From Synergistaceae bacterium (GTDB lineage: Bacteria > Synergistota > Synergistia > Synergistales > Aminobacteriaceae), in assembly GCA_017405525.1 (NCBI GenBank), contig JAFRAH010000006.1, forward strand, positions 1-64,000: a stretch of DNA of 64,000 nt. The letters are read 5' to 3'. Numbering within the stretch: the stretch's first letter is position 1; every line of letters begins with the position of its first letter. This document shows, one piece after another, positions 7,886-14,862 of the stretch. The notes under the pieces are model-generated. The model was given only the letters and a program-made list of their open reading frames with translations. It had not been told where the DNA came from and searched no databases. Made by a program: the position numbers and the translations under genes.

Positions 7886-8623
7886 ATGGACTTTATGAGT
7901 TTGCTCGGCTCTATGATTCAGGGCTCGACTGCTTCATCACCGGCGGCATCACAGAGAATGTCCAACGCAAGCGGAGGCATTCAGGACATTCTAGGCTCAC
8001 TACTAGGTGCAGGCCAGACCGTCAAGAACAAGGTAGGAGGCGACAACCTTGCGGCAGGAGGAATAGGCGCGCTTCTCGGTGCATTACTCGGCGGCTCGAA
8101 CAGCACAACGGCAAATTCACTTGGCGGCGGAATGATGGGACTTCTTGGGATGATGGCCTATAAGGCACTCAAGAACTCAATGGGAGGCAGCACAGCGTCA
8201 GGTGCAGTCTCACAGCCTGAGACACAGTACGTACCAGCAACGCCTCAGCAGCAGGCCAGTGATGCGGAGATAATCCTTCTTGCGATGATTGACGCGGCAA
8301 AAGCTGACGGGCAGGTTGACGCTGACGAGTTCAACAGGATCATGAACAGCGTTAAGTCATCAGGTGCAGGACAGGACGCAATGAACTACATCATCAAGAA
8401 ATTGCAGGGCCCTATGGAGACAGCAAAGATAGTAGCAGCCGTGAAAGGAAGGCCAGAACTTGCGGCACAGGTATATTCTGCATCACTGATGGCGATTGAC
8501 GTTGACACCGACGCAGAGAGGAACTACCTCAACAAGCTCGCCAAGGCAATGGGACTGAATGCCGCCGTAGTCGCGAACATCGAGCAGCTTACTTCTCAGG
8601 GCGGGCAGGATCTCCAGTGCTAG
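7886..8623 (+). CDS. DUF533 (YebE-like) protein with TerB-like C-terminal domain
   Basis: The 245-residue protein has a low-complexity Gly/Ala/Ser N-terminal half with hydrophobic glycine-rich stretches ('GGIGALLGALLGG', 'GGGMMGLLGMMAYKAL') that may associate with membranes. A linker follows, then an acidic all-helical C-terminal half from about residue 125 ('AEIILLAMIDAAKADGQVDADEF'). That half resembles TerB/DUF533, a fold with possible metal binding. The biochemical role of the family is not established. It has its own promoter. The 3' end overlaps the convergent XRE regulator gene by 35 bases, and it stops with TAG followed a few codons later by TGA. Confidence 0.75.
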   Translation: MDFMSLLGSMIQGSTASSPAASQRMSNASGGIQDILGSLLGAGQTVKNKVGGDNLAAGGIGALLGALLGGSNSTTANSLGGGMMGLLGMMAYKALKNSMGGSTASGAVSQPETQYVPATPQQQASDAEIILLAMIDAAKADGQVDADEFNRIMNSVKSSGAGQDAMNYIIKKLQGPMETAKIVAAVKGRPELAAQVYSASLMAIDVDTDAERNYLNKLAKAMGLNAAVVANIEQLTSQGGQDLQC

Positions 8624-8987
8624 CCTTGTGCTGGTTTATGAGATTCTCTACAAGTTTCCTGAACAATTCGTAGCCTTTATCTGTAGGGGGGAGCTCTATT
8701 CTTGTGCCTTCCCCCTCAAACACAAGCATTCCGTTTGAACGCTCATCAGCAGGAAGGGTGATTAGTGCTCTTCCGGGCTGAACTGCCGGTTCAGTCTCCG
8801 AGACAATATCATCCGGCGATATTCCCAGAAGGTTAGCTAGCTCGATTATTCTCGTACCGTTTGGGGCAGTCTCCCCGGCTTCCCAGCGTCTCAATGTGGC
8901 GATAGATATTCCGAGTTTTTCAGCAAGCTCAATTTGAGTCAGCTTTGCTCTTTTCCTGAGTATCCTAATGTTCGTGGATATTCCCAT
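8589..8987 (-). CDS. XRE-family helix-turn-helix transcriptional regulator
   Basis: A 132-residue protein whose first 60 residues form a classical Cro/CI-type helix-turn-helix: 'KLTQIELAEKLGISIATLRRWEAGE', then 'NLLGISPDDI'. The remaining 70 residues have no recognisable effector domain; 'GMLVFEGEGTRIELPPTDKGYELF' could form a small beta/helix dimerisation module. It reads toward the DUF533 gene and overlaps its last 35 bases in antisense. The two could therefore influence each other by transcriptional interference. It lies about 150 bases from birA on the opposite strand, so birA control is possible, but the BirA operator there gives a simpler explanation. Targets are unknown. Confidence 0.85.
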   Translation of the reverse strand: MGISTNIRILRKRAKLTQIELAEKLGISIATLRRWEAGETAPNGTRIIELANLLGISPDDIVSETEPAVQPGRALITLPADERSNGMLVFEGEGTRIELPPTDKGYELFRKLVENLINQHKASTGDPARPEK

Positions 8988-9072
8988 ATTTCTGAACCCA
9001 GCCTTTTCATAAAAGATTGAACGATCAGATTATACCCGCAAAAATATCTTTCCCGCAAATTTTCAGGCAATC

Positions 9073-9102
9073 GTAAACCGTCATTCATTCGTGAAAGTTT
9101 AC
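9073..9102 (+). promoter_or_regulatory. BirA operator upstream of birA-bioY
   Basis: GTAAAC (9073-9078) and GTTTAC (9097-9102) form an inverted repeat separated by exactly 18 bases. This matches the arm sequence and spacing of the bio operator bound by biotinyl-AMP-BirA in Escherichia coli. The right arm overlaps the -35 element of the birA promoter, so binding would block RNA polymerase. Confidence 0.85.
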
Positions 9103-9126
9103 AGCCCGTTAATTCTGTGGTATATA
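9098..9126 (+). promoter_or_regulatory. Sigma-70 promoter of birA-bioY, leaderless geometry
   Basis: TTTACA (9098-9103) and TATATA (9121-9126) are separated by 17 bases. Transcription should begin near 9133, at most a few bases before the birA ATG at 9136. No Shine-Dalgarno sequence precedes that ATG. Confidence 0.7.
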
Positions 9127-9135
9127 TAGCGCATC

Positions 9136-10125
9136 ATGAAGACAAAAATTTTGAACATGCTCGAATCACAGCGCGGTAAATTCATATCAGGCGAGGAGAT
9201 AGCTGACACATTCGGTGTCTCACGTGCTGCTGTCTGGAAGGCTGTATCATCTCTCAGGAAAGAAGGCCACATCATCAACGCCATCACGAATAAGGGATAT
9301 TGCCTCGACGAGTTCAGCGACGTTCTCACCGAGCAGGGCATAACTTCCCACCTCTCACCCCTCACGAAAATATCACGGGTAATCTGCCTGCCTGAAGTCG
9401 ACTCGACCAACAACTACGCCAAGAAGCTCGCCATGAACGGAACACCTCACGGGACGTTAATCGCCGCAAACCATCAGACTGCCGGGCGCGGAAGACGTGG
9501 CCACAGTTTCGAGTCTCCGCCGGGAACAGGGCTCTATATGTCGCTGGTCTTGAGGCCAGACGTTGAGGCTGAAGAGTTCCAGATGATTACGGTCGCTGAT
9601 GCTGTGGCTGTGTGTTTGGCGGTTGAGGAGCTATATCCTGAGTCGCGTGGCAGCCTTGGCATAAAGTGGGTCAATGACGTTTTCATGAACGGCCGGAAAA
9701 TTACCGGGATACTCACTGAGGCAGTAACAGGCTTCGAGAGCGGCGAGATTGAGAGCGTCGTTACTGGCATCGGAATAAACGTATCAACCCGGAAATTCAG
9801 CGGTGATGTCTCAGACGTGGCGGGGGCAATTTTCACGGACGGGGCTGTGCGTTTCGGGAGGGATGAGCTTTGCGCGAGGGTTGCCGAAAATGTCATGACG
9901 TTTGCCGGAAATCTCAATGACCCGGCAATAATTCAGGCTTACCGTGAACGCTCAATCCTAACTGGACGGGAAATATCCTACATGAAGGGAGACACTAGGC
10001 ATTGCGGCCATGTTGAGGGGATTGACGATGCCGGGGGGCTTGTGATTCTGAATGACGAGGGAATGAATGAGACGCTGAGATCCGGCGAGGTCTTCATGGT
10101 GAGAACGGAGGAAAAAACTTCATGA
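9136..10125 (+). CDS. birA: Bifunctional biotin-protein ligase and biotin repressor
   Basis: A 329-residue BirA of the long, DNA-binding class. Residues 1-65 form a winged helix ('GEEIADTFGVSRAAVWKAVSSLR'). The catalytic domain has the biotinyl-AMP loop 'GRGRRGHSF' (about residues 117-125), 'GTGLYMSLVLRP', and the catalytic lysine K177 in 'IKWVNDV'. A small SH3-like domain ends it. The enzyme attaches biotin to carboxylases and decarboxylases. The biotinyl-AMP form represses biotin genes. An operator of the expected sequence lies just upstream, indicating autoregulation together with bioY, whose ATG overlaps the birA stop. The start at 9136 has no ribosome binding site and appears leaderless. 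Confidence 0.95.
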   Translation: MKTKILNMLESQRGKFISGEEIADTFGVSRAAVWKAVSSLRKEGHIINAITNKGYCLDEFSDVLTEQGITSHLSPLTKISRVICLPEVDSTNNYAKKLAMNGTPHGTLIAANHQTAGRGRRGHSFESPPGTGLYMSLVLRPDVEAEEFQMITVADAVAVCLAVEELYPESRGSLGIKWVNDVFMNGRKITGILTEAVTGFESGEIESVVTGIGINVSTRKFSGDVSDVAGAIFTDGAVRFGRDELCARVAENVMTFAGNLNDPAIIQAYRERSILTGREISYMKGDTRHCGHVEGIDDAGGLVILNDEGMNETLRSGEVFMVRTEEKTS

Positions 10126-10661
10126 CTGCAACAAAGCATCTCACACTCTGTGCACTTTTTGCGGCACTAATCGCAATCGGAACTCACATAAAGATACCGA
10201 CACCCTTGCTTCCATTGACGCTTCAGACATTGTTCGTAGTACTTTCGGGTTTGGTACTCGGCAGGAAGTACGGGGCAGCCAGTGTTTGCGTTTATGTCCT
10301 TGCCGGGCTGATAGGTCTTCCTGTCTTCACGGGCTCGGCACTGAATCCGACGTTCGGCTACATTCTGGGGTTCATTCCGGGTGCGTGGCTTGCCGGGTAC
10401 ATTGCGGAGAAGTACAGGCCGTGCTTCATGACGTGGACGGCCGGGGGACTTGCTGGTATTGCCGTGATTTATGCGCTGGGGATACCGTACTACTACCTGA
10501 TGTCGAGATACTATCTCGGCAATGAGCTGGGAGCTCGAACGCTGGTGCTCTACTTCGTGCTGATGCCAATGCCTGGAGACATAGTGAAGAGTATAGCTGC
10601 CGGGCTGATAGTTCAGAGGCTTTCGGTGTTCTTCCCTGAGAGCTTCACGTGGAAGAGATAA
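10122..10661 (+). CDS. bioY: Biotin transporter, ECF S component
   Basis: BioY family, 179 residues, with about six membrane helices. The N-terminal 'LCALFAALIAIGTHIKIP' and 'PLTLQTLFVVLSGLVLGRKYGAASVCVYVLAGLIGLPVF' are strong family signatures, the latter including the conserved 'PLTLQT' loop. BioY binds biotin in the membrane and works with an ECF ATPase/T module or alone; no ecfA or ecfT is nearby. It overlaps birA by 4 nt (ATGA) and shares its BirA-controlled promoter, so uptake should rise when biotin is scarce. No biotin biosynthesis genes occur in the window, consistent with scavenging. Confidence 0.93.
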   Translation: MTATKHLTLCALFAALIAIGTHIKIPTPLLPLTLQTLFVVLSGLVLGRKYGAASVCVYVLAGLIGLPVFTGSALNPTFGYILGFIPGAWLAGYIAEKYRPCFMTWTAGGLAGIAVIYALGIPYYYLMSRYYLGNELGARTLVLYFVLMPMPGDIVKSIAAGLIVQRLSVFFPESFTWKR

Positions 10662-10707: not shown

Positions 10708-11648
10708 CTAAATCCCTAATCTCTTCATGAACTCTTCACCAAGTTCCTGGAGCTCCCTGACTATTTTCCGGGCTGTCTGGTTGTAGAACTTCGGGTGTGT
10801 CAGGACTACCGGGATTCCATCAGCCGGGGCAGCCCCGAACACTGTGCTGTTGTTCCTCACGGGGGAAAAGACATAGCAGCCCTTCTCCTTCAGGCCGTCC
10901 ATGAACTCCTGCTGTGATGAGATTATTTCGCGGCCCTTGCTTCCGTCCTTGAGGATGCTCACCATCATGGGCACTATTCCGAGACTGCTCAGGCTTGAAG
11001 TCTCACAGTCCGAATCACTGCGTTGTTCAGCAAACTCGTTGTACTCCTTGAGGTGATCCTTGATGCTCTCCTCAAGCTGAGTTACTCCCAAAGTCGAAAG
11101 GTAGTCCATTTTTGCCGGGACTATGTAGCAATCGCTGGCAACAAGTGCATTCCTCACGACAATATTGTGTTCGGCGGGCAGTCAATCAGGACGAGGTCAT
11201 AGTCATCCTGTATCTCTGAGAGCGATTTTCGGAGGTAGCTGCAGACTTTCAGGGTTGTGGACGCAAGGAGGTCTATATCATGCGCGAAGATGTGGCTCGC
11301 AAGTTTTATGTCAGTCCCTACGAGCCCCAAGTGTGAGCATATCAGGTCAAATTTCCTGTCTTCAAGGTTGAGAGCGTCCCCCATGTCGAGCTTTACGGCC
11401 AAAGACGAGAGGGAAGGTATTTTCATGTCCCTAGCCGCTGCGTCAAAGTAATTCTTCATGGTCATGTTGTCGGCGTAAAAGTTTCGCCATTCTTCCGGCA
11501 TCATGAAGCTGAACGTAAGGCTTGCCTGCGGGTCAAGGTCTATCATGAGCACGCGCCTTCCCTGGGATGCGGCATAAGCTCCCAAGTTGGCCGCAAGTGT
11601 TGTCTTTCCTACACCGCCCTTAATGTTTATCACTGATACTGTCTTCAT
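10708..11648 (-). pseudogene. ParA-type ATPase, frameshifted into two halves
   Basis: From ATG 11648 (behind AAGGAG) the first half has a deviant Walker A 'KGGVGKTT', 'DLDPQAS', and Walker B 'LVLIDCPPNT', then stops with TGA at about 11155. The second half, in another frame from about 11157, continues exactly where a ParA should: 'VVRNALVASDCYIVPAKMDYLSTLG', then the C-terminal helices. Joining them needs loss of two bases or gain of one near 11157-11165 (an ATAT run sits there). The stop and a GTG in the new frame overlap as GTGA, so reinitiation could produce two fragments. It follows a larger intact ParA gene and is separated from it by a hairpin. It could be a real pseudogene or a sequencing error. 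Confidence 0.8.
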
Positions 11649-11676
11649 TTCACGTTCTCCTTCCGGCAAAAATATA

Positions 11677-11702
11677 CCCCCCTGCCTTTCATGACAGAGG
11701 GG
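11677..11702 (-). terminator. Hairpin between the two parA genes
   Basis: On the minus strand CCCCTCTG (11702 side) pairs with CAGGGGGG (11684-11677), followed by TATATTTTTG. It is intrinsic-terminator-like and ends the TPR-ParA transcript or attenuates it before the second parA. Confidence 0.65.
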
Positions 11703-11716
11703 CAAAATTCCAAGCC

Positions 11717-14862
<3,146 letters not shown>

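Follow-up and report, generated by a model that had tools for sequence, protein, structure and literature searches.

Known BirA systems and leaderless operons

The biotin protein ligase BirA is a textbook bifunctional repressor: in Escherichia coli, the BirA dimer loaded with biotinyl-AMP binds its operator and excludes RNA polymerase. The E. coli operator, bioO, controls bioA and bioBFCD but not birA, and autoregulation of BirA has, to our knowledge, rarely been reported. Control by BirA of bioY in Staphylococcus aureus (PMC6391492) and of biotin synthesis (PMC6391492, PMC4016012) is well established, and a survey of Proteobacteria gives BirA as autoregulated only in the Desulfovibrionales (PMC5343134). 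Many bacteria have leaderless (TA-led) genes (PMC3160421). In the acuR-acuI-dddL operon of Rhodobacter sphaeroides, a leaderless start has been mapped by 5' RACE and the regulator is translated at a lower level (PMC3017554).

The birA-bioY locus described here lies in a window of 64,000 nucleotides (the whole stretch of DNA that was analysed) from a Synergistaceae bacterium. It resembles the E. coli system in its half-sites, in their N18 spacing and in a BirA that possesses both a helix-turn-helix (HTH) and a ligase domain, but its operator precedes birA-bioY and overlaps the -35 element of one promoter, which is apparently leaderless. As in the Desulfovibrionales (PMC5343134) and S. aureus (PMC6391492), a transcript that contains birA or bioY is repressed by BirA, here by prediction; the locus differs from both in its predicted leaderless start, which the accessible parts of those papers do not describe. 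The acuR operon (PMC3017554) is similar in layout only, having a promoter-proximal autorepressor on a leaderless mRNA that lacks a Shine-Dalgarno (SD) sequence at its start and carries SD sequences on the downstream genes; AcuR is an acrylate-induced repressor of the TetR family, unrelated in protein and ligand to BirA, which is a biotin ligase/repressor and so falls outside that family. As in TA-led genes, a -10-like signal is found directly before the birA start codon without an SD sequence, but the text of the TA-led survey (PMC3160421) makes no mention of Synergistetes, and the feature looks gene-specific here in a genome that mostly uses SD sequences. No report of BirA autoregulation combined with a leaderless start was found in the literature searched, subscription papers lying outside its reach.

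The birA-bioY operon

The features of the locus are collected in Table 1. The product of birA begins directly with its HTH (HTH_11, PF08279; 6.5e-15, 55.2 bits against a cut-off of 25, residues 3-55), which is followed by a ligase domain (BPL_LplA_LipB, PF03099; 1e-18, 68 bits against a cut-off of 21), and it exceeds the cut-off of TIGR00121 (145.7 against 83.1). It remains below that of TIGR00122 (41.1 bits against 70), and the full-length BirA models of NCBIfam score under their curated cut-offs. The C-terminal BPL_C domain (PF02237) reaches 20.6 bits against a cut-off of 21; the alignment to solved BirA spans this region, and the E. coli and S. aureus proteins are among the nearest solved structures.

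Table 1. Coordinates in the window of the features at and around the birA-bioY operon
Feature	Position	Strand	Basis or remark
Promoter of the divergent HTH gene (8589-8987): TTGCGG, 18 bases, TATAAT	9029..9058	-	TTGC..-TATAAT recurs in most genus loci
Operator left arm GTAAAC (9073-9078), next base C; feature entered with that base	9073..9079	+	Same in E. coli bioO
Operator spacer, 18 bases	9079..9096	.	Sequence mostly unconserved
Operator right arm GTTTAC	9097..9102	+	Direct reading; genus alignment; matches E. coli bioO
-35 element TTTACA, overlapping the operator right arm	9098..9103	+	Direct reading; same overlap in three sister genera
Extended -10 element TGG-TATATA, at 17 bases from the -35	9118..9126	+	Direct reading; columns conserved in the genus
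In-frame TAG excluding an upstream birA start	9127..9129	+	Direct reading
Transcription start as predicted, near 9133 (9132-9136), leaving a leader of 0-4 nt	9133..9136	+	Predicted from the -10 position
birA, biotin protein ligase with N-terminal HTH (about 9142-9300)	9136..10125	+	Pfam, TIGR00121, structures
bioY Shine-Dalgarno sequence GGAGG, within the 3' end of birA	10107..10111	+	Direct reading
bioY, S component of biotin transporter; start codon overlapping the birA stop (ATGA)	10122..10661	+	PF02632 BioY, 3.3e-33

The product of the second gene has the BioY domain (115 bits against a cut-off of 25). In most of the genus birA adjoins bioY, and bioY is preceded by an SD sequence in 20 of the 21 loci of the leaderless type with a readable junction. 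No bioB gene scored over the cut-off in the source genome, which possesses a single biotin/lipoyl-carrier gene and EcfT-like genes; its owner is probably a biotin scavenger with the birA-bioY operon as the only BirA target. A search for RNA elements, including riboswitches, gave no credible candidate.

The operator and its probable regulator

A predicted BirA operator, GTAAAC-N18-GTTTAC, can be read directly from the letters of the window at 9073-9102. An earlier note on this DNA had recognized in it the arms and spacing of the bio operator, and the bioO sequence of E. coli MG1655 bears this out, with two identical 6-base arms and an identical N18 spacer length. The pattern GTAAAC-N15..21-GTTTAC matches only once in the whole 2.17-Mb genome, at birA, and its reversed control not at all; the chance expectation for the exact N18 form is about 0.1 per genome and about 8e-6 in the 148-base gap upstream of birA. 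When a second operator was sought in the source genome with looser patterns, the matches were no better than those of reversed-pattern controls.

The genus, one of rumen bacteria, comprises 43 species (43 genomes), the named database relatives being Synergistaceae or Synergistales genomes from ruminants, and upstream regions were read for 32 birA genes whose product retains the HTH. In the genus alignment, the columns of the arms reach up to 2 bits and those of the spacer are mostly below 0.6 bits; the left arm is GTAAAC or GTCAAC in 31 of the 32 genus members. Absence of the two arms from close relatives had been named beforehand as one of the observations that would overturn the earlier note, and they are retained in 31 of the 32 species with an HTH-bearing BirA, whereas the operator is found in none of the six species with an HTH-less BirA in the stretches read (Fisher p 2.5e-6, ignoring relatedness, the species being related and the counts not independent). 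A match to a lenient pattern in one HTH-less species (L096) was disregarded, its arms being poor; a stricter scan gave none in such species. In G034, birA is split from bioY and the operator at birA has been lost. Upstream of birA in G026 (L021), only 8 bases separate the arms where 18 are usual, a shortening by 10 bases or one helical turn, and the promoter is intact.

Some species possess a second bioY distant from birA, mostly as bioY-bioB, with a copy of the operator on its 5' side; in six of them (G008, G009, G010, G015, G027 and G039), TTGTAAACY...TTGACAA is found upstream of the second bioY and bioB follows. The site therefore precedes classic biotin genes independently of birA. At the second-bioY loci L083, L084, L085, L086, L089 and L090, the right arm supplies TTGACA as the -35 element, the leaders are ordinary ones with SD sequences, and the start codons are often TTG.

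The bioO-type arms and spacing, the co-occurrence with an HTH-bearing BirA and the position before biotin genes in relatives strongly support the prediction that this is a BirA site. Because a DNA-binding protein of the Xre type is encoded next door (8589-8987, minus strand), the inverted repeat might instead be thought the site of another regulator such as this one, but it is extremely improbable that a foreign site would equal E. coli bioO in arms and spacing, track the HTH of BirA so closely across the species and precede bioY-bioB operons that do not adjoin the Xre gene; Paenibacillus and other genera likewise have similar sites upstream of birA. It is likewise very unlikely that a BirA-bound site mainly serves the divergent HTH gene, with control of birA incidental. 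The operator does fall in the gap that the two genes share, but it exactly overlaps the birA -35 element while lying about 14 bases beyond the divergent one, it is kept at loci that lack the divergent promoter block (L016, L024, L029 and L030), and further copies stand before bioY-bioB elsewhere, in other species.

Promoter and start of birA

The earlier note had also placed the right arm within a TTTACA -35 element with TATATA exactly 17 bases on and had seen no SD sequence before birA, and direct reading agrees on each point. The TATATA hexamer (9121-9126) has TGG (9118-9120) directly 5' of it, and the ATG (9136-9138) follows 9 bases past the -10 element; since the in-frame TAG lies between them, 9136 is the first possible start of birA. 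An ATG start, a -10 element at 9 bases from it and the lack of an SD sequence are all found together, with a hexamer that is not strict consensus. From the position of this hexamer, the transcript is predicted to begin at about 9133.

A strict sigma-70 scan of 8950-9200 called no promoter, because TATATA ends in A where the -10 consensus has its final T, the sixth base. The extended TG and the conservation nevertheless argue that the promoter is functional despite its non-consensus hexamer, and outweigh the strict scan: the hexamer is kept as TATAWW or CATAAT in most relatives, and in 26 of the 32 species a spacing of 17 (once 18) bases separates TTTAC(A/G) from a -10 element, and an ATG without an SD sequence stands 6-11 bases beyond it, giving predicted birA leaders of 0-5 nt. 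It might still be supposed that, operator and autoregulation both being genuine, the main start is further upstream, with an SD-less leader read via S1 or as an A/U-rich leader and the "-10" at 9121 merely AT-rich. The weakness of TATATA in the strict scan and the conserved sequence to the left of the operator speak for this reading, but we consider it unlikely, given the constant placing of the -10 element between TTTACA and ATG in 26 species and the occurrence of this promoter in sister genera together with a true SD leader. The conserved block itself is accounted for, because its minus strand reads as the promoter of the divergent gene (TTGC..-18-TATAAT), and a rightward promoter within it was ruled out on that basis. 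A promoter overlooked further upstream would yield a birA mRNA with a leader but no SD sequence. By its sequence and conservation, the birA message appears to be leaderless.

Among 582 candidate starts (253 genes in 402 kb of the source genome), birA ranks at the top for a promoter directly before the ATG. An SD-like motif precedes a candidate start in 186 of 276 long ORFs, and therefore the source genome mostly uses SD sequences. Hexamers resembling -10 elements are over-represented 1-7 bases before ATG in the genome-wide positional profile; leaderless use throughout the genome was rejected as the cause, the excess being attributed mostly to AT-rich spacers between SD and start and strong candidates being few, in an estimate that is rough because the gene calls are simple long ORFs. 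The leaderless start of birA appears to be gene-specific in this genome.

Proposed regulation

Most likely, birA and bioY form a biotin-autorepressed operon in which birA is on a leaderless, probably weakly translated mRNA and bioY has its own SD sequence. By analogy with E. coli, BirA loaded with biotinyl-AMP would dimerise and bind GTAAAC-N18-GTTTAC, covering the -35 element and excluding RNA polymerase from the only promoter found for birA-bioY. Plentiful biotin would then silence the ligase/repressor and the biotin importer alike, and the promoter would open when biotin is short or when biotinyl-AMP is consumed by the carrier protein. Judging from the promoter position, the transcript would begin at the birA AUG or 0-4 nt upstream, which would lead to leaderless translation of birA, and bioY would be translated from its own GGAGG, coupled to the birA stop. 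The likely effect would be little repressor/ligase relative to transporter from a single mRNA, the low translation of birA being suggested by the example of acuR.

Presence and history of the birA leader

Three sister genera in this family (L097, L098 and L099) possess the same right arm and 17-base gap, with TATATC or TATACC as the -10 element, but have 22-35 bases from there to the ATG, an SD sequence such as GGGGAGGTGA and leaders of about 16-29 nt. Operators of more distant Synergistota (L100, L102, L104, L109 and L112) also have SD leaders. That a leaderless start is uncommon for birA, as the earlier note had supposed, is upheld by several findings: in other Synergistota genera, every birA locus that was read and has an operator is without such a start, an SD sequence precedes birA in most Bacillota relatives, few genes look leaderless in the source genome, and published autoregulation among Proteobacteria is confined to the Desulfovibrionales (PMC5343134). 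Overall, that first interpretation largely holds, with the transcript start as a prediction.

Because the three sister genera share the promoter layout but carry SD leaders, the leader was probably lost in the genus, and the simplest history would be its deletion in the ancestor of the genus. In four species (G011, G004, G005 and G030; L023, L025, L027 and L028), TATAAT lies between the two operator arms and birA has an SD leader, apparently through a shift of the promoter into the operator. They form one clade in the tree (support 98/92), which fits either regain of the leader through the promoter move or loss of the leader more than once. Tentatively, and with some doubt, a fuller history may be sketched in which the genus shed the SD leader of birA and left operator and promoter untouched, the fusion of promoter and start lowering the ligase/repressor relative to the SD-led importer and re-tuning the biotin set point, after which, in one sub-clade, the promoter shifted to within the operator and a leader was restored. 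If true, this would be a naturally occurring series of switches in translation initiation around one fixed regulatory site. Operator and promoter are common to this genus and its sister genera and the presence of a birA leader is not, so that comparing them is a clean approach to the question of how leaderless translation determines the amount of an autorepressor in relation to its target gene.

In G021 (L005), the leaderless promoter is kept and drives a mini-ORF of 29 codons (MKTKILKLITKILSQVRGSQKVLALSSGE) that copies the start of birA; birA itself follows with an SD-like GGAGA. The mini-ORF may be an oddity of assembly or duplication; alternatively, it may encode a leaderless leader peptide.

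Other features of the neighbourhood

Just after the -10 element of the divergent Xre-type gene, the region 8990-9058 contains the sequence CAATCTTTTATG, which is conserved in most genus members and is possibly that gene's own control site. On the minus strand at 11154-13015, two adjoining ORFs encode ParA-like proteins (GKGGVGKTT), the longer of which has a PEPEPV repeat.
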